Shown here in pieces: positions 36,743 to 47,938 of a stretch of DNA of 64,000 nt. Every line of letters begins with the position of its first letter. Within the stretch, counting starts at the first letter, position 1. The position numbers and the translations under genes are program-made. The stretch is from Chloroflexota bacterium (GTDB lineage Bacteria; Chloroflexota; Anaerolineae; Anaerolineales; Villigracilaceae): assembly GCA_016235425.1 (NCBI GenBank), contig JACRLC010000010.1, positions 62,001 to 126,000 of the forward strand, written 5' to 3'. A model generated the notes under the pieces. It had not been told where the DNA came from. It made no database searches and saw nothing but the letters and a program-made list of their open reading frames with translations.

Positions 36743-37168
36743 TCACTCTTCCAAAAGCGCCCTCAACCCAAGCGCATACGATTTCCATCCCAGACCGACA
36801 ATCTTTCCCTTGCACACCGCCGAAATCATCGAAGCGTGACGAAACTCCTCACGCGCGTACACGTTCGATAAATGCACCTCGATCACCGGGATGCCAATCG
36901 CGGCAATCGCATCGCGTAACGCGATGGAAGTGTGAGTGAACCCGCCGGGATTGAACACCACGCCATTTGCCCACGTGCGCGCCTCCTGCAACGCGTCAAT
37001 CAGCGCGCCCTCGTGATTCGACTGCAAACATTTCACCTCCGCGCCAAACGATTTCCCCAGCTCAACCAGCTTCGTGTTGATGTCATCCAAGGTCATCGAA
37101 CCATAAAATTCAGGTTCACGTGTTCCAAGCAAATTCAAATTCGGGCCGTGCAAAATTAGGATTTTCAT
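36743..37168 (-). CDS. aroQ: 3-dehydroquinate dehydratase, type II
   Basis: 141 aa. Converts 3-dehydroquinate to 3-dehydroshikimate. Motifs: [17 protein letters not shown] with catalytic Tyr, [29 protein letters not shown] with the catalytic His region, and [16 protein letters not shown]. Last gene of the minus-strand aro operon, 127 bases after aroKB; the gap holds a dispersed repeat. Confidence 0.96.
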
Positions 37169-37295: not shown

Positions 37296-38858
37296 CTACT
37301 CCAGCACCTTCTCCAAATCCGCCACATCCACCAACTCCACTTTGCCAATCCCGGCGGGCAGAGCAAAACGAATAACGTTCATATCCTTCTTTTTGTCCAC
37401 TCTCATCGCATGGATGATTTCTTCGCGTGACAATTCTTTCGGGATTTGGACGGGCAGTCCCAACGCAGACAGAGACTCGGCTATCGCCTCAGATAACCCT
37501 TTGCCTGCCACCGTTAAACGTTCAGCCAGCTTCGCCTCAGCCACCATTCCCATGGCAACGGCTTCCCCATGCCTCAATTGAAATTTGCTGACAAGCTCCA
37601 CGGCATGTCCAACTGTGTGACCCAGGTTTAGCACAGCGCGCCGGCCTCTTTCATACGGATCATCCTCGATGACTTGTATCTTCACCGCCATCGCGCGCCT
37701 GACGATTTCTTCGAGATTCTCCTTCACCCAATCCAGGCCGCGCGCGCATAAATTGAATAATTCCGGGTCGGAGATGATGCCGTGCTTCACCACTTCGGCG
37801 AGGCCGGAAATCAGCTCGACTTCGGGCAGGGTCTTCAATACCTGCGGGTCAGCCAATACCAGTTTCGGCGCATGGAACGCGCCAATCAGGTTTTTGCCTT
37901 CGGGCAGGTCGAACCCCGTCTTGCCGCCCAGCGAGGCATCCACCATCGAGAGCAGTGTCGTCGGCACGCCAACCCAACTCACCCCGCGCATGAACGTGGA
38001 CGCGGCAAAGCCCGCCATATCGCCGATCACACCGCCGCCCAATGCAATGACCGTGCTTTTGCGATCCAACCCCGCTTCAAGGAATCCATGCCAGATTCGG
38101 TTGACGGTATTCAATGTTTTGTTCGCTTCCCCGGCAGGCACAGCCAATAATTTGGGATTTAACCCTCCCTCACGAAGTGACATCATTACGATTTCTGCAT
38201 GGAAGACGGCTACATTTTCATCCGTCACCACAATCGGTTTTTTCAGTCCGCGCGGCTTGAGCATTTCACTCAGTTGTTCAAGCCCGTGATTTTCTACAAT
38301 CGCATCGTAGGCGCTCATCGCGCTTAGGCGGTATCGCCCCACAGCGATTTGGGTCTGCCATGTGTTTTGGTGGGCGGCCTTCCCATCCACCTGCACACGC
38401 GAGGGGAAGGAGTTGTAATGCTCCAGTCTGCTTTCAAGCAGGGAGGCGAGTTTCTCGCTCAAATCCCCTGCCAGCAAGGGACGTTTATTTGGATCGGAGT
38501 TAAGCCGTTCCAATAAAGTATTCAATTCTGCCATGAGCAAAACGACCTTGCCATTGGTTTCCGCCATCTCGCGATTCTCATCGCGCAAAAGCGCGCCGCC
38601 GCCCAGGGCAATCACCGAATCCCCTTTTCCAGCGAAGGAGGAATTAGGGTTGAAAATGAGTTCCCGCAACGCGGCAGTTTCGAGATCACGGAAGGCCGTC
38701 TCGCCCTGTGTTTCCATGATCTGCGGAATGGACATCCCCGCGTTCGTTTCGATGACGCGGTCGAGATCAATGAATGGCAGCTTGAGATTGCGTGCAAGCG
38801 TCTTGCCGATGGTGGATTTTCCGGTTCCAGGTGGGCCGTAGAGGAAGATGTGTGACAT
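37296..38858 (-). CDS. aroKB: Shikimate kinase / 3-dehydroquinate synthase fusion
   Basis: 520 aa from the ATG at 38858. The N-terminal shikimate kinase (about 1-165) starts with the P-loop GPPGTGKSTIG and has LPFIDLDRVIE, GETAFRDLE and GGGALL. The C-terminal dehydroquinate synthase (about 185-520) has the NAD site ALGGGVIGDMAGFAASTFMRG, the VDASLGGKTGFDLPEGKN loop and Zn ligands in AEVVKHG, NLGHTVGHAVE and RHGEAVAMG. An in-frame start 17 codons earlier (38909) would add residues encoded by an intergenic repeat; neither start has a clear ribosome site. Confidence 0.95.
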   Translation of the reverse strand: MSHIFLYGPPGTGKSTIGKTLARNLKLPFIDLDRVIETNAGMSIPQIMETQGETAFRDLETAALRELIFNPNSSFAGKGDSVIALGGGALLRDENREMAETNGKVVLLMAELNTLLERLNSDPNKRPLLAGDLSEKLASLLESRLEHYNSFPSRVQVDGKAAHQNTWQTQIAVGRYRLSAMSAYDAIVENHGLEQLSEMLKPRGLKKPIVVTDENVAVFHAEIVMMSLREGGLNPKLLAVPAGEANKTLNTVNRIWHGFLEAGLDRKSTVIALGGGVIGDMAGFAASTFMRGVSWVGVPTTLLSMVDASLGGKTGFDLPEGKNLIGAFHAPKLVLADPQVLKTLPEVELISGLAEVVKHGIISDPELFNLCARGLDWVKENLEEIVRRAMAVKIQVIEDDPYERGRRAVLNLGHTVGHAVELVSKFQLRHGEAVAMGMVAEAKLAERLTVAGKGLSEAIAESLSALGLPVQIPKELSREEIIHAMRVDKKKDMNVIRFALPAGIGKVELVDVADLEKVLE

Positions 38859-38932
38859 GGATAAAATGTGAAGGATGAATGATGAAAGTAATTGGTAATT
38901 ATTCGACATTATCGGAAATAGTGTACGAGCAC

Positions 38933-39048: not shown

Positions 39049-40227
39049 TTAAGGCCACCAGACGTGGGGTGTATCCTCCATTTGCAAATTCTCGAGGGTG
39101 GCTTTGCGAAGGGCTTCGAAGCGCGGCATCATTTCGTTCATTGAGTCGCCGCCGAGTTTTTCGATGAGCGCATCTGCAATAACAAATGCAGCCATCGCTT
39201 CAAGAATTGGAACTGCACGCGGGACGGGACAGAAATCGGAGCGTTCATATTTGGTGGTGGATTCTGATTTTAACGCCAGGTCAACTGTCGGCTGGGGAAG
39301 AAGCGTGGTGGCTATCGGTTTCATCGCGGCGCGGACGACGATGGGCCGTCCGTTGCTGATTCCGCCTTCGATGCCTCCGGCTCGATTGGAATTGCGAATT
39401 AGGGATTGCGAATTAGGAGTTGCGAGTGAGATTGCGTCCTGAACTTGTGTGCCGGATAAGCGCGCGTTTGCAAAGGCGTCGCCGACTTCCACGCCTTTGA
39501 TGGCTTGGACGGACATGATTGCCAGGGCAAGTTTTGCTTCGAGGCGTTTGTCCCATTGGGCGAAACTGCCGAGGCCGAGGGGCACATTCAGCGCGACGAT
39601 TTCCAGCACGCCGCCGAGGGTGTTTTTGCCGTGAATGGTCTTTTCGATTTCGGCGCGCATTCGATTGGCGGATGATTCGATGGGACAACGCACATCCGAT
39701 TCTTCGGCGCGGGTGAAGCGTTCTTCGTAAGGCATGTCGTCAAAATCGGTTTGTACTTCGCCGATGGATGAAACGTATCCGCCGACAATGATGCCAAATT
39801 GTGAGAGAAAATGCTTACACACTGCACCCGCCGCGACACGCATGGCGGTTTCGCGGGCTGAGGCGCGTTCGAGTGCGGGGCGCAAATCCCTGTAGCCGTA
39901 TTTGACTGCGCCTGTTAGATCTGCGTGGCCTGGGCGTGGAGCGGTCATCGGCTCGATGGCTTTGCCTTTCCATTTGACATGGTCGTCGTTTTGGACGAGC
40001 AATGCAATCGGTGCGCCCGTCGTTTCGCCTGCCATGACGCCGCCGAGGATTTGGACGGTGTCTTTTTCGATTTTCATCCGTCCGCCGGAACCATAGCCTT
40101 TTTGGCGGCGGGCAAGTTCGAGGTCAATAATGGATGCGGTGAGTTCTAGTCCGGCGGGAATGCCATCGAGGATGGCTGTCAAAGAGGGGCCGTGAGATTC
40201 TCCGGCGGTGAGAAAGCGTAGGGGCAT
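39049..40227 (-). CDS. aroC: Chorismate synthase
   Basis: 392 aa. Makes chorismate from EPSP using reduced FMN. The start MPLRFLTAGESHGPSL, the RxASARETA motif (ERASARETAMRVAAGAV) and AGGIEGGISNG are conserved. GGAG lies before the ATG. Residues about 267-280 (TPNSQSLIRNSNR) are encoded by a repeat of ATTGCGAATTAGG units in the loop before the AGG motif; overall length is normal, so the enzyme is probably active. Confidence 0.96.
   Translation of the reverse strand: MPLRFLTAGESHGPSLTAILDGIPAGLELTASIIDLELARRQKGYGSGGRMKIEKDTVQILGGVMAGETTGAPIALLVQNDDHVKWKGKAIEPMTAPRPGHADLTGAVKYGYRDLRPALERASARETAMRVAAGAVCKHFLSQFGIIVGGYVSSIGEVQTDFDDMPYEERFTRAEESDVRCPIESSANRMRAEIEKTIHGKNTLGGVLEIVALNVPLGLGSFAQWDKRLEAKLALAIMSVQAIKGVEVGDAFANARLSGTQVQDAISLATPNSQSLIRNSNRAGGIEGGISNGRPIVVRAAMKPIATTLLPQPTVDLALKSESTTKYERSDFCPVPRAVPILEAMAAFVIADALIEKLGGDSMNEMMPRFEALRKATLENLQMEDTPHVWWP
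39388..39430. repeat. Low-complexity repeat inside aroC
   Basis: Two direct ATTGCGAATTAGG units (and a third degenerate one) read in frame within aroC. The same style of ATT/AAT-rich repeat is found in intergenic gaps of the window. Confidence 0.7.
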
Positions 40228-40273: not shown

Positions 40274-41179
40274 TCAGTGGTCTACAGATGCGGCTAAAAT
40301 TTCACGCGGCGGGTTGTGACCCGTCCAAATCTCGAATGCGAGGGCGGCTTGTTCGATTAACATGCCGAGGCCGGTTGTGGCGGGTAACCCTTGCGAATGC
40401 GCGTCTTTTACCAGTTTGGTTTCGCGTGGATTGTAGACTAAATCGTAAATTACGGCGTTGGGAAAAGATAAATTCTCCGGCCAGGGAGATTGGTTTACGT
40501 TGGGAGTCATGCCGATGGGGGTGGCGTTTACCAAAAGGATGAAAGATGAAGGGTGAAGGATGAGGGAATCGTAATTTGTAATTTGTAATTTGTGTTGCGT
40601 CCCTTTGACTTCGCTCAGGGTGTAGTCGCGTGGTGCGTGTTGCGTGAAGAATGTGGCGAGTTGCCGGGCTTGTTCGATGCGTCGCGCGGCAATGGTGACG
40701 TTCCATCCGTCATTGGCTAAAGCATGTACCACTGCTCGTGCGGAGCCTCCCGCGCCCAAAACAAGAGCATTTTTCCCCCTCACCCCTAACCCCTCTCCCA
40801 AAAAGGGAGAGGGGGATTCTGCCAAAAATTTTTTCAAATCAGATAAAAATCCAGGAGCGTCGGTGTTGTCGCCGATGAGTTTGTCTTCGCGGAGATAAAT
40901 TGTGTTGACTGCGCCAACGGCTTTGGCAGTGGGTGTCAATTCATCGAGCAGGGGGATGACGTTTTGTTTGTGTGGGATGGTGACGTTGAGGCCGCGAATT
41001 TCTTTTGCTCGAACGCGATTGAGCAAATCCTTCAAGCCTTGCTTGTCATCAGGTGCGATGGGGAAGAGCGAGTAATCCCCTTCCAATCCGCAGGCGCGTA
41101 ACGCGGCGGTGTGGATTTTGGGTGAGAGAGAGTGGCCGAGGGGATAGCCGATGAGACCGAGTTTAAATGATGTTTGCAT
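40274..41179 (-). CDS. aroE: Shikimate dehydrogenase with two repeat-derived insertions
   Basis: 301 aa, longer than the usual 270-285. Reduces dehydroshikimate with NADPH. N-terminal SLSP, NVTIPHK with catalytic Lys, GDNTDAPGF and the Rossmann motif LVLGAGGSARAVV are intact. Residues about 122-135 (SPSPFLGEGLGVRG) come from a CCCTCTCCC/GGGAGAGGG palindrome and about 195-216 from an AT-rich repeat. Both are before or within surface loops and keep the frame. Confidence 0.93.
   Translation of the reverse strand: MQTSFKLGLIGYPLGHSLSPKIHTAALRACGLEGDYSLFPIAPDDKQGLKDLLNRVRAKEIRGLNVTIPHKQNVIPLLDELTPTAKAVGAVNTIYLREDKLIGDNTDAPGFLSDLKKFLAESPSPFLGEGLGVRGKNALVLGAGGSARAVVHALANDGWNVTIAARRIEQARQLATFFTQHAPRDYTLSEVKGTQHKLQITNYDSLILHPSSFILLVNATPIGMTPNVNQSPWPENLSFPNAVIYDLVYNPRETKLVKDAHSQGLPATTGLGMLIEQAALAFEIWTGHNPPREILAASVDH
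40532..40597. repeat. Low-complexity repeat inside aroE (second insertion)
   Basis: GGATGAAAGATGAAGGGTGAAGG units followed by three copies of TAATTTG. Encodes about residues 195-216 of AroE in frame. Confidence 0.7.
40775..40816. repeat. CCCTCTCCC/GGGAGAGGG palindrome inside aroE (first insertion)
   Basis: CCCCTCACCCCTAACCCC followed by TCTCCC-AAAAA-GGGAGA. A related copy spans the stop of a DAHP synthase at 43513-43546. Confidence 0.8.
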
Positions 41180-41189
41180 GGTAAAAATA

Positions 41190-41246
41190 GCGGAGTCGAA
41201 AGTCTCCAGACTTTCGACTCTCCAACGTCAGGAGACGTTGGAGTCC
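41190..41246. repeat. Double-hairpin repeat, copy 2 (contains aroA stop codon)
   Basis: On the minus strand it reads GGACTCCAACGTCTCCTGA and continues to GACTCCGC, aligning end to end with the copy at 18267-18321. It encodes the last residues Asp-Ser-Asn-Val-Ser and the stop of aroA and lies in the aroA-aroE gap. Confidence 0.85.
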
Positions 41247-42571
41247 GTAGTACGCAAAGTTTCTAGCACTTCGAAAAAATTAGGGAAAGTTTTTGAAACG
41301 CAGGATGGATTTTCAATCGTGACGCCGTCGAAACGCAGGCCGATGAGGGAGAATGCCATTGCCATGCGGTGGTCATTATACGTTTGAATGTTGGCAGGTT
41401 TGAAGGTTTGACACGGATAAATAGTCATGCCGTCTTCGTGTTCTTCCACGCGGACGCCGAGTCTCGCCAATTCAGTGCAGGTGGCGTGGACGCGGTCAGT
41501 CTCTTTGACGCGGGCGGAGGCGATGCCGCGGATGCGGGTGGGGGAGGATGCAAAGGGGGCGATGGCGGCGAGGGTTTGGGCGGTGTCGGGGATGTCGCGC
41601 ATGTCCACATCGAGGCCGCGAAGTTTGGTGGGGCCAGTGACCAGTATACAGTTATCGGTTTCTGAAATAGTGCATCCCATTTTTGCAAGCACATCGAGAA
41701 AAGCAATATCGCCTTGTTTTGAGTTGCGTGAAATATTCTCAACTTTTACTGTGCCGCCACAAATGGCAGGCGCGGCGAAGAAGTAGGATGCGGCGGAGGC
41801 GTCAGACTCAATGGCATAGGCAGGGGAAGATTGAGAATTAGAGATTGGAGATTGGGGATTGGAGATTGGTAATTGGTAAGTAGTAAGTGGGATGGAGAAA
41901 TGTTGGTAGGCGTTTCGTTTGGTTTCAACTCCGAAGTCGCGCATAATGGCGATGGTCATGTCCACGTAGGGTTTGGAGTTGAGGTCGGTAGAAACTTCTA
42001 TTTCGATAGGAGATTTGGCGTAAGGCGCGACCATCAGCAGGGCGGAGAGAAATTGGGAGGAGATATCGCCGGCGATTTTGGTTTTTCCGCCGGGGAGGCC
42101 GGAGGCGGTGATTTTTATGGGAGGGCAAATGGAAGGACGAAGGATGAAGGATAAAGGATGAATGTTTGCGCCCAGTTGCGTCAGAGACTCTATAAGGTCT
42201 CCGATTGGTCTTTCTCTCATCCGAGCGTCACCATCCAAAATGTATTCGCCATGGCCGAGGGTGAGGAAGGCGGAGAGGAATCTTGCGGCGGTGCCTGCGT
42301 TGCCGATGAAGAGTTCGGCTTTGCTTGCAGGGATTTTGCCGCCCAGCCCAGTGACGGTCATTTCGTGATTGGCTTCGTCGAGTTGGACATCGAAGCCGAG
42401 GGTTTGCAAGGCTCCGGCGAAGCAGCGCGAGTCGTCGGAGAAGAGGGCGTTGGTGAGGCGGGTGGTTCCTTTGGCGAGGGAGGCGATGAGCAAAGCGCGG
42501 TTGGTCAGCGATTTGGAGCCGGGGACGCGGACGGTGGCGTGGAGGGGGTGGGGGATGGGGATGATTTGCAT
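41228..42571 (-). CDS. aroA: EPSP synthase (3-phosphoshikimate 1-carboxyvinyltransferase)
   Basis: 447 aa, about 20 longer than typical. Joins shikimate-3-phosphate and PEP. PGSKSLTNRALLIA, NAGTAARFLSAFL, SSQFLSALLM, ESDASAASYFF and the C-terminal NDHRMAMAFSL with the PEP-binding Arg are intact. Residues about 137-148 and 228-248 are encoded by low-complexity repeats (GAAGGATGAAGGATAAAGG type and ATTGGAGATTGGGGATTGG type), and the C-terminal five residues by the double-hairpin repeat. The insertions sit in variable loops, so activity is likely. Confidence 0.95.
   Translation of the reverse strand: MQIIPIPHPLHATVRVPGSKSLTNRALLIASLAKGTTRLTNALFSDDSRCFAGALQTLGFDVQLDEANHEMTVTGLGGKIPASKAELFIGNAGTAARFLSAFLTLGHGEYILDGDARMRERPIGDLIESLTQLGANIHPLSFILRPSICPPIKITASGLPGGKTKIAGDISSQFLSALLMVAPYAKSPIEIEVSTDLNSKPYVDMTIAIMRDFGVETKRNAYQHFSIPLTTYQLPISNPQSPISNSQSSPAYAIESDASAASYFFAAPAICGGTVKVENISRNSKQGDIAFLDVLAKMGCTISETDNCILVTGPTKLRGLDVDMRDIPDTAQTLAAIAPFASSPTRIRGIASARVKETDRVHATCTELARLGVRVEEHEDGMTIYPCQTFKPANIQTYNDHRMAMAFSLIGLRFDGVTIENPSCVSKTFPNFFEVLETLRTTDSNVS
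41830..41889. repeat. Low-complexity repeat inside aroA (second insertion)
   Basis: Runs of GAGATTGG, GGATTGG and TAATTGGTAAG. Encodes about residues 228-248 of AroA in frame. Confidence 0.7.
42130..42163. repeat. Low-complexity repeat inside aroA (first insertion)
   Basis: GGAAGGACGAAGGATGAAGG and related units; the same unit type fills the tyrA-aroA gap at 42572-42605. Confidence 0.65.
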
Positions 42572-42666: not shown

Positions 42667-43509
42667 TTATGTGGTGAATTTCTGGTATTTGTTTTGCGCT
42701 TCGTTCAAGATGGTTTCAAGTTTTGAAAAATCTTCCGATGCCAGCGCAATTTTGATTTCAGCTAGTTGTTGTTGAAGTTCTGAGATAGTGTTTAGGACAT
42801 TCTCGCGGTTGGATTGCAAAACTCCCAACATCATGGACGAGGATGTCCCTGCCAGCCTGCTGGTGGATTTGAAGCCTGGGCCGATGAATGAAGCCACATC
42901 CTCTGGCGTGGCAAGCGCGAGCGCGGAGGAGAGTAAAAATGGAAGATGACTTGTGGACGCAAGGATGTGGTCATGGTCGGTCGCGTCGAGGGTGGTGGCT
43001 TTTGCGCCGATGGCTTCGATGATTTGATGCGCGGCAGATAAGGCTCGCGGCGATGTCCGTTCCATCGGCGTGAGCAGGAATGGAGCGGCGTAGTAGAGAG
43101 TTCGTTCGGCGTTGGCGAGGGAGAGTTTTTCCTTGCCGCAGATCGGATGCCCGCCGATGGGATCGAAGCGTTCGGGCAGGCGGGACATGGATTCGACGAT
43201 TAATTTTTTGGTCGAACCCAAGTCCATGACGATGCAGGGGTTGGGGGTGTAGGTTGGTAATTTTTCCAGCAGGGTCAAAATCGCGGGGACGGGGGCGGAC
43301 AGGATAACGAGGTCAACTTCGAGGAGCAGGTTGGCGGGGTCGCTGTCAGCGCGGTCCACTATGTTTTGGGACAGGGCAAGCTCGAGTGTCGCGCGATGCG
43401 GGTCGATTCCGTAAAGCGCGGCGCATTTTCCGCGAAGTCCCAACGCGAGCGAGCCGCCCATCAATCCCAATCCGATGATTGCGATTTTGGACTCTGCGAG
43501 ATTAAACAT
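42667..43509 (-). CDS. tyrA: Prephenate dehydrogenase
   Basis: 280 aa. NAD-dependent oxidation of prephenate to 4-hydroxyphenylpyruvate for tyrosine. Nucleotide site IAIIGLGLMGGSLALGL at 9-25 and the conserved GGHPICGKE and STSHLPFLLSSAL motifs with catalytic His residues. No ACT or chorismate mutase domain is fused, so mutase activity must come from aroH. Its Shine-Dalgarno (GTGAGGG) belongs to the repeat that also ends the upstream DAHP synthase gene. Confidence 0.95.
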   Translation of the reverse strand: MFNLAESKIAIIGLGLMGGSLALGLRGKCAALYGIDPHRATLELALSQNIVDRADSDPANLLLEVDLVILSAPVPAILTLLEKLPTYTPNPCIVMDLGSTKKLIVESMSRLPERFDPIGGHPICGKEKLSLANAERTLYYAAPFLLTPMERTSPRALSAAHQIIEAIGAKATTLDATDHDHILASTSHLPFLLSSALALATPEDVASFIGPGFKSTSRLAGTSSSMMLGVLQSNRENVLNTISELQQQLAEIKIALASEDFSKLETILNEAQNKYQKFTT

Positions 43510-43512
43510 AAA

Positions 43513-43546
43513 CCCTCACCCTAGCCCTCTCCCAATGGAAGAGGGG
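43513..43546. repeat. CCCTCACCCTAGCCCTCTCCC repeat at DAHP synthase / tyrA junction
   Basis: Encodes the C-terminus (SPLPLGEG, stop) of the second DAHP synthase and the ribosome binding site of tyrA. Related to the palindrome inside aroE at 40775-40816. Confidence 0.75.
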
Positions 43547-44561
43547 ACGCGAGACGACGGTCAACCGCTTCGGCCACCGCCCGAACCTGCTTCACCATTT
43601 TGGCAAAGGCTTCGGGCGTGAGAGATTGGCGTCCGTCGGAAACAGCGTTGGCAGGGTCGTTGTGAACCTCGACGATGATGCCGTCTGCGCCTGCGGCGAT
43701 GCCCGCTTTCGCGACCGCCGCGACGTAAGCGGAGTCGCCAGTGGAATGCGAGGGGTCAATGATGACGGGGAGGTGCGTGAGTTTTTTGAGGACGGGGATG
43801 GCATTGATGTCGGTGGTGTTGCGCGTGGCTGTCTCGAATGTGCGGATGCCGCGCTCGCACAGCATGACGCGCGTGTTGCCGCCGCTGAGGATGTATTCGC
43901 TTGCCATGAGGAGTTCTTCGATGGTGGCGGACATGCCGCGCTTGAGCAGGACGGGCGTGCGCGTTTCGCCGATGGCGCGCAGGAGATTGAAGTTCTGCAT
44001 ATTGCGCGCACCGAGTTGGAAGACATCCACGTACTTTGTCATCATTTCAATTTGCGAAACGGCCATGACTTCGACCACAATGGGCATGCCCGTTTCGGCG
44101 CGGGCCTCCGCCATATATTTGAGGCCTTCTTCGCCGAGTCCTTGAAATGAATAGGGCGAGGTACGGGGCTTGAAGACGCCGCCGCGCAGGGCGTTCGCAC
44201 CCGCTTCGCGGACGGCGTGTGCGATGTCGAGCAGTTGCGAATGTGACTCAACCGCGCATGGCCCCGCGATAACCGCAATCTCTTCGCCGCCGACGGTGAA
44301 ACCGTCGAGCGGGAAGACGGAGTCGTGTTCGTGGAACTGGCGTGAGGCAAGTTTGTATGGCTGCGAAATGCGCTGAACGGACAGCACGCCTGGCAAGGCT
44401 TCGAAAATTTCCTTGGCAACGGAATGACTCTCGCCGACCGCGCCGATAATGGTCTGCTCAACGCCTTCGATGACGTGCGAGGAGAGATGTTGTTTTTCGA
44501 TTGCCGCGATTACATTTTCGACTTGTTCTTTGGACGCACCTGGGTGCATGATGATCATCAT
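43521..44561 (-). CDS. DAHP synthase, second copy
   Basis: 346 aa. Condenses PEP and erythrose-4-phosphate, the first shikimate step. An N-terminal ferredoxin-like regulatory domain (about 1-75, [17 protein letters not shown]) precedes the TIM barrel, which has [48 protein letters not shown] and DPSHSTG. The copy upstream is clearly paralogous; the barrels are very similar while the regulatory domains differ more, suggesting different feedback. The C-terminal eight residues derive from a repeat. Confidence 0.94.
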
Positions 44562-44587
44562 GGTAGTTATTCCTTTGTGTGTGTGAT

Positions 44588-44634
44588 GTAGGGGCGGCGT
44601 CCTGCCGCCCAGGGCGGGGAGATCCCGCCCCTAC
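44588..44634. repeat. GC-rich double hairpin between the DAHP synthase genes
   Basis: Outer arms GTAGGGGCGG (44588-44597) and CCGCCCCTAC (44625-44634), with inner GGCGG/CCGCC and GGGCGGG/CCCGCCC stems. It includes the stop codon of the first DAHP synthase. Could be a dispersed repeat or a processing or stabilising hairpin in the transcript. Confidence 0.7.
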
Positions 44635-45677
44635 TTCAATGGTTGATATTCTCCCTGGATAGTCGCCAGTCTTCGTCCCATAATCTGCGCGATTTGCCCA
44701 ACCTGCTTAACCATCTCTGCAAACTTTTCAGGCTTGAGCGATTGCTTGCCATCAGAGACCGCGTGCGCGGGGTTGGGATGGACTTCGACTATGAGGCCGT
44801 CTGCGCCTGCGGCAATGGCGGCGCGTGCAACCGCGGCGACGTAGTCCACGTGGCCGGTCGAATGGCTTGGGTCAAGGATGACGGGAAGATGTGTGAGATT
44901 TTTCAAAACGGGAATGGCATTGATGTCGGTGGTGTTGCGCGTGGCTGTCTCGAATGTGCGGATGCCGCGCTCGCACAGCATCACCTGTTTGTTTCCCCCC
45001 GCGAGGATGTATTCGGCGGACATCAGCAGTTCTTCAATCGTGGCGGAGAGTCCGCGCTTGAGCAGGACGGGAATTTGCGTCTCACCGATGACGCGCAGGA
45101 GATTGAAGTTTTGCATGTTGCGCGCACCGATTTGGAACACATCCACGTATTTGGACATCAAGTCCACCTGCACCTGTGACATGATTTCGACAACGATGGG
45201 CAGTCCTGTTTGGGCGCGGGCTTCGGCGAGATATTCGAGACCTTCTTCCCCGAGTCCCTGGAATGAATACGGCGACGTACGCGGCTTGAAGACTCCACCG
45301 CGCAATGCGGACGCGCCCGCCTCTTTCACCGCCTGGGCTGTTTCCATTATCTGGGAGCGACTCTCCACTGAACATGGCCCCGCGATGATGGCAATCTCGT
45401 CCCCGCCGACGGTGAATCCGTCCAACGGGAAGATTGAATTTTCGGGATGGAATTGCCGCGAAGCGAGCTTGAATGGCTGGGTAATGCGTTTGACCATTTC
45501 AACTCCGTCAAGCCCTTCGAATAACTCGGTCGGGATGCTGTGCGCTTCGCCGATTGCCCCAATAATAGTCGCTTCCACGCCCTGCGAGAGATGGACATTT
45601 AATCCTGCCGCTTTGACGTGTTCGATAACGTGCTCCACCTGTTGCGGGGTGGCGTTGGTTTTCATTATGATCATCAT
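44631..45677 (-). CDS. DAHP synthase, first copy
   Basis: 348 aa, same fold as the copy downstream: N-terminal ferredoxin-like domain (about 1-75), then the TIM barrel with [42 protein letters not shown] and [11 protein letters not shown]. All catalytic motifs are present in both. Differences in the regulatory domain (for example [15 protein letters not shown] against [15 protein letters not shown]) suggest separate allosteric control. It is 15 bases after aroH. Confidence 0.95.
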
Positions 45678-45692
45678 GGTGATTTCTCCTAT

Positions 45693-46064
45693 TTACTGCG
45701 CGGCGACCAAATCTGGCCTCAACTTTACCGCATCTCGTAAATACACATGCGTTATATCCGATTGCGGCGTGTCCGTGTTCCAATGGACAAGGACGCGAAT
45801 AACCTTCCGCAAACTTCCAGGCACGGGAATTTCCCTCGCGCACAACATCGGAACGAGTCCCCAGCCCATTTGACGGGCAGCCTGCGCGGGGAAGGTGGAG
45901 GCGAGATCGTCGGTCACGGTGAAGAGGGCGCTTCCCACGTCTTCGGGCCTCATGCTTTCATTTGCACCCAGAATTGCTTCAAGTAGTTCCCGCGTGGCTT
46001 CGAGAATTAATTCAGGTTCATCGGCTGAGACGGTTGTCGCGCCACGGATTCCACGGATTGGCAT
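45693..46064 (-). CDS. aroH: Chorismate mutase, AroH type
   Basis: 123 aa, the usual size of the monofunctional AroH class. Converts chorismate to prephenate. [20 protein letters not shown] at the start, [19 protein letters not shown], the C-A-R-E segment ([13 protein letters not shown]) and RVLVHWNT with the active-site Arg are conserved. AAGGAG lies before the ATG. First structural gene of the aro operon, downstream of a leader-peptide attenuator. Confidence 0.95.
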
Positions 46065-46140
46065 AGACGGCTCCTTGTTTTCCCTTCTCTCACTCGCGCT
46101 GAGCGAAGTCGAAGCGTGGGAGAGGGCGGATGAGGGGAAT

Positions 46141-46174
46141 AAAAAAAGAGCGAGGCCGTCTGGCCTCGCTCTTT
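46141..46174 (-). terminator. Attenuator terminator upstream of aroH
   Basis: Thirteen-pair stem AAAGAGCGAGGCC / GGCCTCGCTCTTT (46145-46157 and 46162-46174) with a four-base loop, followed on the minus strand by seven U. It lies between the aromatic leader peptide and aroH. No minus-strand gene lies upstream for it to terminate, only the divergent cbs gene. Confidence 0.85.
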
Positions 46175-46201
46175 ACGTGAACAGATTTATTTTCTGTCTA
46201 C

Positions 46202-46279
46202 TTAAGCGCCACCACCGGCAACCAGTTTCTGGAGGCCGTAATAAAAGTAAAACGCAAACCAACGAGTGGACTTAAGCAT
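46202..46279 (-). CDS. Aromatic leader peptide of the aro operon (attenuation peptide)
   Basis: 25 codons. ATG at 46277-46279, TAA at 46202-46204. Residues 7-14 are WFAFYFYY: one Trp, three Phe and three Tyr in eight codons, then GLQKLVAGGGA. Checked codon by codon on the minus strand. The promoter just upstream places the transcription start about four bases before the ATG, so translation is nearly leaderless and no Shine-Dalgarno is needed or seen. Ribosome stalling for lack of any charged aromatic tRNA should change folding of the following terminator at 46145-46174 and let transcription reach aroH. GGCCTC in codons 15-16 and GGTGGCGCTT near codons 23-26 can both pair with the terminator's 5' arm; which one is the antiterminator is not settled. 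Confidence 0.85.
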   Translation of the reverse strand: MLKSTRWFAFYFYYGLQKLVAGGGA

Positions 46280-46289
46280 GTTGGGCGCT

Positions 46290-46318
46290 ATTCTATGCGT
46301 GTCATGCAAATGCGTCAA
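46290..46318 (-). promoter_or_regulatory. Promoter of the aro operon leader
   Basis: Minus strand: -35 TTGACG (46313-46318), exactly 17 bases, -10 TAGAAT (46290-46295). Predicted start near 46283, four bases before the leader ATG. Confidence 0.85.
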
Positions 46319-46525
46319 GGGGCAAAATTCTCTGTGTTATAGCCCAAAATGGAAATGCCTCTTTTCGCCAAAGTTAATTTGTCCGCCTTTTTGAATTCAA
46401 TTGGGAGTCTTTTCGGTTCTCTCTGCTGGGAGAGCCATGTCGATTTTAAAATTGTCATACGAATTGTCCTGCACTGCCCTGCGGCTTATTTCAATAGTAA
46501 AATACCCTCAACCAAAGGAGAGAGA

Positions 46526-47938
46526 ATGACAGGATTACCAGAATCCAAAGATAAACGCGTATTTAACAATATCATAGGGGCAATGGGAAATACCCCGCTT
46601 GTGAAGCTTGAGCGGATCGCACGCGACCTGCCAGTTCCGCTTTATGCAAAATTGGAATTCATGAATCCCGGCGGCTCGGTCAAGGACCGGGTTGGCGCTT
46701 ATATTATCGAGCAGGCCGAGAAGAGGGGAGAGCTCAAGCCCGGCGGCACCATCGTGGAAGCCACTTCGGGCAACACCGGCGTGGGACTCGCCATCGCCGC
46801 CGCGCTCAAAGGATACAAGACCATCTTCGTCATGCCGGACAAGATGAGCAATGAAAAGATTTTGTTACTGCGAGCCTATGGGGCCAAGGTTGTCATTACA
46901 CCAACCGCGGTTGCGCCTGAAGACCCAAGTTCTTATTATGAGGTTGCAAAGCGCTTCGTGCGCGAAACGCCGAACGCAATTTTGGCAAATCAATATCACA
47001 ACCCGGACAACCCGAAAACTCACGAGATGAGTACCGGCCCTGAGTTGTGGGAGCAGACCGATGGCCGCGTGACCGATGTCATCATTGGCATGGGGACCGG
47101 CGGAACGATTTCGGGTGTTGGGCGCTTTCTTAAGTCGAAGAATCCCAATATCCAGATCGTGGGCGTGGACATCGAAGGCTCGATCCTCACAGAGATTTGG
47201 CAGAACAAGGGGAAAATTCCCGAAGGCGCATACCCCAAGACCTATAAAGTTGAAGGCATCGGCGAGGACTTTTTGCCCTCCGCCACGGATTTATCTATTG
47301 TTGACTGGATCGAGCGCGCCGGGGACCGCGAGTCTTTTTTGTGGGCGCGGCAGTTGGTGAGGCAGGAGGGGATATTCGCGGGCGGCTCGTCAGGGTCCGC
47401 GCTGGCGGGCGCAATGAAATATTGCCGCAGGCTGGGGCCTGAGCGATTGCCTGTTGTTATCTTTCCCGATTCGGGTTCGCGTTATCTCTCCAAATTCTAC
47501 GACGATAAATGGATGCGTGAGTTCGGCTTCCTCTCGATGGAGTTTGGCGAAATGTCATTGGGCGACCTTCTGATTGCCAAGCCAAACAAGTCCCTGCTCA
47601 CAGCCACGCTCGGCGATTCGATCCGCAAGGTGGTTGCCATCATGCACCAGAATGCTGTTTCGCAGATGCCGGTCGTCGGCGCAGATGGTTCGCTCGCCGG
47701 GCTGATCGAAGAAGTGGACTTGCTGAATCATATGCTCGAAAAACACGAACACAGCCAGGATGAAACCATTGACGCGCTCGTGCAGAATGCGGGCGCGGTC
47801 TTCCCGCCTGAAACTTCGCTCGAAGAAGCCATGCCGTCGCTCACCGCGGGCTATGCGTTGATCGTGGTGGAGCACAGCAAGCCAGCCGGGATTCTCACCA
47901 AAATTGACGTGCTCGATTATGTGGCGGGGAAGATCTAA
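46526..47938 (+). CDS. cbs: Cystathionine beta-synthase with C-terminal CBS domains
   Basis: 470 aa from the ATG at 46526 with AAAGGAG upstream; an upstream in-frame extension of 59 codons has no protein-like features. PLP Lys53 in GGSVKDR, SGNTG loop, GTGGTISGVGRFLK and GGSSGSALAGA are present. Residues about 335-470 form two CBS domains (LGDSIRKVVAIMHQNAVSQMPVVGADG). No N-terminal heme domain. Condenses homocysteine and serine (or acts as a cysteine synthase paralogue). CBS domains suggest nucleotide or SAM control. Confidence 0.92.
   Translation: MTGLPESKDKRVFNNIIGAMGNTPLVKLERIARDLPVPLYAKLEFMNPGGSVKDRVGAYIIEQAEKRGELKPGGTIVEATSGNTGVGLAIAAALKGYKTIFVMPDKMSNEKILLLRAYGAKVVITPTAVAPEDPSSYYEVAKRFVRETPNAILANQYHNPDNPKTHEMSTGPELWEQTDGRVTDVIIGMGTGGTISGVGRFLKSKNPNIQIVGVDIEGSILTEIWQNKGKIPEGAYPKTYKVEGIGEDFLPSATDLSIVDWIERAGDRESFLWARQLVRQEGIFAGGSSGSALAGAMKYCRRLGPERLPVVIFPDSGSRYLSKFYDDKWMREFGFLSMEFGEMSLGDLLIAKPNKSLLTATLGDSIRKVVAIMHQNAVSQMPVVGADGSLAGLIEEVDLLNHMLEKHEHSQDETIDALVQNAGAVFPPETSLEEAMPSLTAGYALIVVEHSKPAGILTKIDVLDYVAGKI

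Follow-up and report, generated by a model that had tools for sequence, protein, structure and literature searches.

The region upstream of aroH in the 64-kb stretch of DNA analysed here (hereinafter designated the window) is best explained as a classical ribosome-mediated transcription attenuator, in which a near-leaderless leader peptide very probably senses the charging of tRNAs for Phe and Tyr and, secondarily, for Trp. Every feature of the attenuator and of the operon behind it lies on the minus strand. The initial annotation had proposed an aromatic leader-peptide attenuator at this locus, and the sequence and its comparison with relatives argue for that reading: the ORF, its aromatic codons and the terminator are conserved, the promoter keeps its position, the two strands of the putative antiterminator (regions 2 and 3) change together, and the end of the leader appears to be constrained as RNA.

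The predicted promoter comprises a –35 hexamer, TTGACG (46313-46318, minus strand), identified by sequence scan and order-level conservation, and a –10 hexamer, TAGAAT (46290-46295, minus strand; sequence scan), separated by a 17-nt spacer, the latter lying 10 nt before the leader ATG. The leader ORF (46202-46279, minus strand; ATG at 46279, TAA stop ending at 46202), recognized by ORF reading and by comparison with relatives, is near-leaderless, lacks a Shine-Dalgarno (SD) sequence and encodes the 25-codon peptide MLKSTRWFAFYFYYGLQKLVAGGGA, whose translation places the control codons W7, F8, A9, F10, Y11, F12, Y13 and Y14 at 46238-46261 (minus strand). Both the promoter TTGACG-17-TAGAAT and a 25-codon peptide with WFAFYFYY at residues 7-14 are present on this strand as the initial annotation described them, and so is the 13-pair stem with a U tail that it had placed before aroH: the intrinsic terminator AAAGAGCGAGGCC-AGAC-GGCCUCGCUCUUU spans 46174-46145 (minus strand; 13-bp stem, 4-nt loop, –24.1 kcal/mol) and is followed by a U-tail at 46144-46139. 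Consensus scans are weak evidence by themselves, as the 1001 bases scanned hold two promoter-like sites (1.0 expected) and four terminator-like sites (1.3 expected). The leader RNA folds at –57.3 kcal/mol compared with –35.8 kcal/mol for its shuffles (z = –5.9), beating all 200 of them, and a whole-genome search of the assembly (5.0 Mb, 109 contigs) returned a single copy of the leader peptide.

The operon downstream encodes a chorismate, Phe and Tyr pathway, all on the minus strand: the monofunctional chorismate mutase aroH (45693-46064; TIGR01796, 146.5 bits), two DAHP synthase copies (44631-45677 and 43521-44561), a prephenate/arogenate dehydrogenase (tyrA, 42667-43509), the 3-phosphoshikimate 1-carboxyvinyltransferase aroA (41228-42571), the shikimate dehydrogenase aroE (40274-41179), the chorismate synthase aroC (39049-40227), a shikimate kinase/aroB fusion (37296-38909) and the type II 3-dehydroquinate dehydratase aroQ (36743-37168). 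These assignments come from NCBIfam, with tyrA resting on matches below the curated cut-offs, and they agree with the claim of aroH plus eight more aro/tyr genes when the shikimate kinase/aroB fusion is counted as one gene. Among the 80 named loci that were fetched, 41 were picked for their downstream length; aroH, DAHP synthase and tyrA lie on the same strand in all 41, joined by aroA in 40, aroE in 38, aroC in 37, aroKB in 37 and aroQ in 33, and the gene order is identical wherever the genes are present. Contig ends account for some of the absences (L189 and L191); within 10 kb, L193 is without aroA onward and L240 without aroE onward. The two DAHP synthase genes in the window are adjacent paralogues directly after aroH (43521-45677, minus strand), and some relatives probably carry one copy and others two, as judged only from a tyrA offset of about 1.5 versus 2.6 kb. 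AroH is missing from eight genomes of the family (G007, G012, G013, G015, G020, G026, G029 and G034), and in none of the eight does this DAHP synthase have a convincing homologue, with very weak matches in four and no match in the other four, so that loss of the leader may go along with loss of the pathway. These genomes may belong to aromatic amino-acid auxotrophs or to users of other enzymes.

The leader accompanies aroH across the class. The closest named relatives are mostly metagenome-assembled genomes (MAGs) of Anaerolineales and other Chloroflexota. In the relatives' set, AroH occurs in 46 of 61 genomes, our own included, and a short ORF with at least 4 aromatics in 9 codons lies upstream of aroH in 44 of the 46; at that cut no leader is seen in the remaining two. 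Class-wide, AroH is found in 203 of 298 genomes, from which upstream stretches were fetched for a chosen sample. In the two sets together, 99 of 120 upstream stretches contain an ORF in which W, F or Y makes up 6 or more of 9 codons; the controls yield none among the 120 reverse complements and at most 3 positives among 355 other stretches of 450 nt, one of these positives possibly being the true leader of L055. The start of aroH was placed by an RG.RG motif that is absent from 4 of 79 loci in one set; placing these four by coordinates (three positive) brings the count to 102 of 124. One locus (L071) was unused because it comes from the same genome as L036, and another with only 80 nt upstream (L058) stands outside the 120. 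Among the 80 named loci, the 4-of-9 cut yields an ORF in 69, including a weak wrong pick in L244, and the 11 without a leader divide into six with less than 300 nt upstream and five with full upstream sequence. Dropping leaders with fewer than 5 of 9 aromatics and merging identical ORFs reduced 191 leaders to 171 distinct ones (L055, L092, L120 and L122 lie outside this set). The initial annotation had named a comparison of related genomes as one way to check its proposal, which missing conservation in close relatives would have refuted; the ORF, its aromatic codons, the terminator, the promoter and the near-leaderless start are all conserved there.

Outside the class, ten of 48 loci examined carry a clear leader, and these ten are all of the sampled loci from families f80, f83, f90, f113 and f115. 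The remaining loci are without one, except for a doubtful case (L164) and a leader that falls below the 5-of-9 cut (L179); one sampled locus (L172) has only about 211 nt upstream. Two of the 53 phylum-level loci lack the placing motif and are leader-negative by coordinates, and L140, which has two such motifs, is leader-negative at the right place. In three carrier genomes outside the class, a tblastn search of about 10 kb recovered aroH and a DAHP synthase and not the rest of the operon. Cultured carriers of the leader include Anaerolinea thermolimosa IMO-1, Bellilinea caldifistulae GOMI-1 and Leptolinea tardivitalis YMTK-2. Three AroH-bearing records stand out by their labels: AroH of L187, labelled Herpetosiphon sp., is 87% identical to that of the window and stands behind an Anaerolineales-type leader, and those of L261 and L264, both labelled Planctomycetes, are 61% and 59% identical. 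All three are possibly misnamed or mixed MAGs.

The promoter and its spacing to the leader are conserved as well. A sigma-70-like promoter scoring at least 8.5 is found in 88 of 98 order-level leaders compared with 11 of 192 control windows. Of these 88 promoters, 82 have TTGACN at –35, 80 a 17-nt spacer and 62 TAGAAT at –10, and in 65 the –10 box lies exactly 10 nt from the ATG. The same pattern that detects an SD-like sequence before aroH in 88 of the 98 loci (94 with a wider pattern) detects one before the leader ATG in only three. Because the promoter-to-ATG spacing is kept and the SD is missing, the near-leaderless start appears to be conserved, in agreement with the initial annotation, which had predicted one from the window, where the ATG stands 10 nt past the –10 box without an SD.

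The control codons point to a device that primarily reads Phe and Tyr. Both codon types are present in all 164 distinct terminator-bearing leaders, and Trp codons in 77. In an alignment of 92 order-level leaders by their final control codon, F or Y fills the last four control positions in 80, 90, 91 and 85 leaders, with F and Y interchanging between positions from leader to leader; Trp favours the first control position, with 32 of 92 leaders having it at –7 and few at any other site. Aromatic residues average 6.8 of 9 in frame and 1.5 in the other frames, a contrast flattered by the choice of windows in frame. The combined Trp, Phe and Tyr sensor of the initial annotation is thus borne out in its Phe and Tyr codons, and Trp appears to be an optional addition.

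The terminator is found in 164 of the 171 distinct leaders and in 8 of 171 shuffled sequences. A reverse-complement control, positive in 122 of 171, was set aside in favour of shuffles; it is uninformative because terminators with an A-run, a stem and a T-run are symmetric. The stop-to-terminator distance is 17-38 nt in all but two leaders (47 and 72 nt), and the two arms change together: the matched pairing averages –20.9 kcal/mol and the swapped pairing –11.1 kcal/mol, with the matched arm better in 164 of 164. Seven leaders have no detected terminator, including both from family f83 (L166_G476 and L169_G358), and the aromatic leaders of this family possibly have a different, perhaps translational, output.

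Alignment-based folding with RNAalifold of 87 leaders predicts the terminator alone and no alternative pairing, and alternative pairings were therefore probed by swapping partners between species. Region 2, GCCGGUGGUGGCGCUU (46204-46219, minus strand), extends up to the stop codon and would serve as both the 3′ strand of an upstream hairpin (P1, or 1:2) and the 5′ strand of the antiterminator; its partner, region 3 (46155-46171, minus strand), is made of the terminator 5′ arm and loop. In the window, the predicted duplex has 13 bp in three blocks, GCCG/CGGC, UGGU/GCCA and CGCUU/GAGCG (–20.8 kcal/mol). Across leaders, mean energies are –20.9 kcal/mol for matched, –17.7 for species-swapped and –15.4 for shuffled partners. 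The own partner is better than a swapped one in 132 of 164 cases (p = 3e-15), in a pooled test that mixes in between-clade swaps and, like the p-values of its subsets, takes no account of ancestry. The subsets give 43 of 58 for the class (p = 3.9e-5), 6 of 8 for the phylum (p = 0.039) and 52 of 98 for the order (p = 0.0075), the last being weak because the antiterminator is too invariant within the order. With the terminator 5′ arm alone as the partner, the matched pairing is better in 111 of 164 (p = 9e-7). Control windows show no such preference, with 77 of 153 upstream (p = 0.33) and 61 of 164 in the spacer.

The initial annotation had hesitated between two antiterminator strands, preferring GGTGGCGCTT at codons 23-26 over GGCCTC at codons 15-16. 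The swap tests bear out its preference, and they extend it, as GCCGGUGGUGGCGCUU pairs beyond GGTGGCGCTT with the terminator 5′ arm plus the loop. GGCCTC was rejected as the main antiterminator: across 92 leaders its type of segment averages –6.4 kcal/mol compared with –19.2 kcal/mol for the stop-proximal segment, in windows of unequal length (9 nt versus 23 nt). Contiguous pairing of 6 bp is found for 35 of 92 GGCCTC-type and 52 of 92 stop-proximal segments, which beat their own shuffles in 71 and 89 cases, respectively. The GGCCTC pairing may play a side role.

Folding places hairpin 1:2 at 46216-46238 (minus strand; CGGC-CU-CCAG-AAA-CUGG-UU-GCCG, –11.0 kcal/mol). Its ACGG..CCGU pairing is present in 65 of 92 order-level leaders and absent from 27, and its region beats shuffles in folding in 85 of the 92. 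TAC accounts for 75 of 77 final Tyr codons but for 86 of 232 Tyr codons elsewhere, a bias that a need for ACGG to pair with CCGU in this hairpin would produce. The end of the leader is also retained as RNA across reading frames: 44 leaders translate the motif GCCGUUGGYGGCGCUUAA, give or take small variations, in the ..AVGGA frame, ending at the stop, and seven in a different one (..LPLVALK), so that 7 of 51 motif-bearing leaders retain the region-2 RNA despite a different peptide. These observations suggest that the peptide tail is conserved for its RNA and the aromatic run for its codons. A further frame-shifted tail, outside this count, is seen in the L055 (G168) leader, MLKSARWFAYFYFTAPNRLPLAALK.

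From this arrangement we infer the start of transcription, the stalling of the ribosome, the timing of the switch and the response to amino acids. Transcription would start just a few nucleotides short of the leader AUG, the near-leaderless codon at which translation would begin. With tRNA-Phe and tRNA-Tyr charged, the ribosome would reach the stop codon and cover region 2, allowing the terminator 3:4 to form. A ribosome stalled in the control run would leave region 2 free to pair with the emerging region 3 as the antiterminator 2:3, which takes the terminator 5′ arm and loop, so that RNA polymerase would read through into aroH. Without translation, hairpin 1:2 would hold part of region 2 and termination would be favoured, at least in this species. 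The predicted output is that tRNA charging sets the transcription of the whole chorismate, Phe and Tyr operon.

We modelled this sequence of events in four leaders (those of the window, L006, L031 and L147) by folding what remains of the RNA once the stretch under the ribosome is taken out. For the window, as long as region 4 has yet to be transcribed, antiterminator pairing peaks with the ribosome at codons 12-17 and all but vanishes once it stands anywhere from codon 22 to the stop. Hairpin 1:2 competes when the ribosome is at codons 6-11, and L006 behaves alike; in both, the competition is seen with the ribosome at codon 10 or earlier. In L031 and L147 the antiterminator forms even with the ribosome near the start, and hairpin 1:2 hardly competes (2 of 4 modelled sequences), so that an untranslated leader is not predicted to terminate in these two. 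Once region 4 is included, the terminator is the favoured equilibrium fold of the full-length RNA in all four, implying that the decision must be made co-transcriptionally, as in classical attenuation. The locus combines a short ORF rich in codons for the end products of the pathway, an intrinsic terminator between the leader and the first gene and, by computation, a terminator-excluding antiterminator that a ribosome standing on the stop codon masks.

T-boxes also regulate amino-acid genes by tRNA charging and are present in the same genome, where eight RF00230 matches have E values below 1e-9, one of them over the gathering score. They precede ileS, a pheS-like gene, thrS, trpE (identified from PF04715), serS, a TrpB-like gene and two less certain genes; one candidate is L265 (G000:C100:68185-68542, minus strand). 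T-box elements contain no leader ORF and each reads one tRNA. The attenuator locus differs in having a leader ORF and no RF00230 match, and Rfam searches at gathering and relaxed thresholds found nothing convincing at the leader, all matches in the window being sub-threshold; likewise, no Rfam match falls on the attenuator in L005, L242, L253, L260, L147 or L094. In Anaerolinea thermolimosa IMO-1, a T-box over the gathering score lies about 7 kb upstream of aroH (L242:2779-3078, plus strand). The trpE match in our genome scores 76.9 bits against a cut-off of 93, and in the alignment UGG is read at its specifier position. Trp thus seems to be under its own control, which fits an optional Trp codon in the leader. 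No short ORF with more than 3 of 9 aromatics was found upstream of this genome's pheA and trpE. In Dehalococcoides, T-boxes have been reported before ileS, trpE and trpB-like genes (PMC2494555).

An equal-weight sensor of Phe, Tyr and Trp, as the initial annotation proposed, would be in keeping with a pathway that supplies all three amino acids and with the Trp codon seen here and in 77 of 164 leaders. It appears rather unlikely, as the other 87 leaders have no Trp, as Trp stands mostly at the first control position, where the window model leaves hairpin 1:2 competing, and as trpE and the TrpB-like gene of this genome have T-box matches of their own, although below the gathering score. A further alternative keeps the same RNA switch and changes its trigger. 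In TnaC and Erm leaders the peptide itself stalls the ribosome, and an RFYFAYYFYG-like peptide could likewise arrest it on a small molecule. The order-level leaders do have a recognizable motif, with R before the run in 56 of 92 and G after it, the latter being part of the anchor used. F, Y and W nevertheless interchange at most positions, the run varies in position and length, the residues that follow it are wholly different in the frame-shifted leaders whose RNA is constant, and other families have mainly aromatic richness in common, which makes arrest by the nascent chain very unlikely.

Finally, the ORF could be an unregulated translation spacer before a constitutive terminator that lowers expression without sensing. 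The preference of the full-length fold for the terminator in all four modelled sequences is compatible with such an arrangement; it would leave unexplained the frame-specific aromatic codons (6.8 of 9 versus 1.5, with windows chosen in frame), the co-change of the antiterminator strands and the narrow stop-to-terminator spacing, and we consider it exceedingly improbable.

This class of mechanism is known. The E. coli trpL and pheL leaders follow a four-region logic and start from an SD sequence, and the ilvGMEDA leader provides multivalent attenuation. The locus described here is like trpL and pheL in its control-codon ORF and its competing antiterminator and terminator, and differs in its target, since each of these leaders senses a single amino acid for one branch and the present one precedes the common pathway. 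With ilv leaders it has mixed control codons in common, for aromatic and not branched-chain amino acids. What appears new is the phylum, the whole-pathway target, the universal mix of Phe and Tyr codons and the conserved near-leaderless start. We found no report of a leader-peptide attenuator from Chloroflexota in the open-access literature searched; the survey by Lopatovskaya et al. 2010, which reportedly treats attenuators in bacteria, could hold predictions for this phylum.

The control-codon ORFs of E. coli trpL and pheL are named in the portion of PMC11802643 available to us, which also relates that the Corynebacterium glutamicum aroR-aroF leader, with Phe-Tyr-Phe, acts by ribosome-mediated attenuation and responds to Phe and not to Tyr (Neshat et al. 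2014). This is probably the closest precedent, by a resemblance that would be functional only: an aromatic leader peptide likewise precedes an operon with a DAHP synthase gene, in another phylum and with a shorter aromatic run, and the part of the account available to us does not name a whole shikimate operon. For C. glutamicum ilvBNC, an extract of PMC11857589 describes several amino acids of one pathway in one control region. For Streptomyces lividans, the accessible part of PMC8079986 reports attenuator leader peptides, trpL included, whose transcripts lack a 5′ UTR; these belong to Actinobacteria, and the leaders listed there are leu, trp, ala, ilv, met and thr, with Phe, Tyr and shikimate leaders not among them. 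The initial annotation had called the near-leaderless start and the mixed sensing unusual; the start and the mixture of Phe and Tyr codons are conserved here, and with S. lividans, ilv and aroR each has precedents.

The attenuator is conserved across the class of the window and five sampled families of other Chloroflexota classes, and in the order of the window it sits above the whole shikimate operon. A broader reading, plausible if slightly on the doubtful side, is that an ancient Chloroflexota attenuator uses a near-leaderless mini-ORF to sum the charging of Phe and Tyr, and optionally Trp, tRNAs, acting as an OR gate over the shikimate operon amid single-tRNA T-boxes, and that the leader is kept where a T-box cannot serve. 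The attenuator would also give leaderless translation a part in regulation in Chloroflexota. The locus is a natural setting in which to ask how a single RNA integrates scarcity of several amino acids, and why one operon is entrusted to a leader read by ribosomes in a genome that has T-boxes.

Two observations concern the flanks of the leader. The divergent neighbour (46349-47938, plus strand) is a cystathionine beta-synthase-like gene. The start listed for its ORF probably lies further upstream than the true one, since at about 46527 there is an ATG preceded by a purine-rich region. On the other side, between the terminator and aroH, the stretch at about 46094-46121 has three further copies in the genome (23-28 nt at 96-100% identity) and is probably a dispersed repeat.
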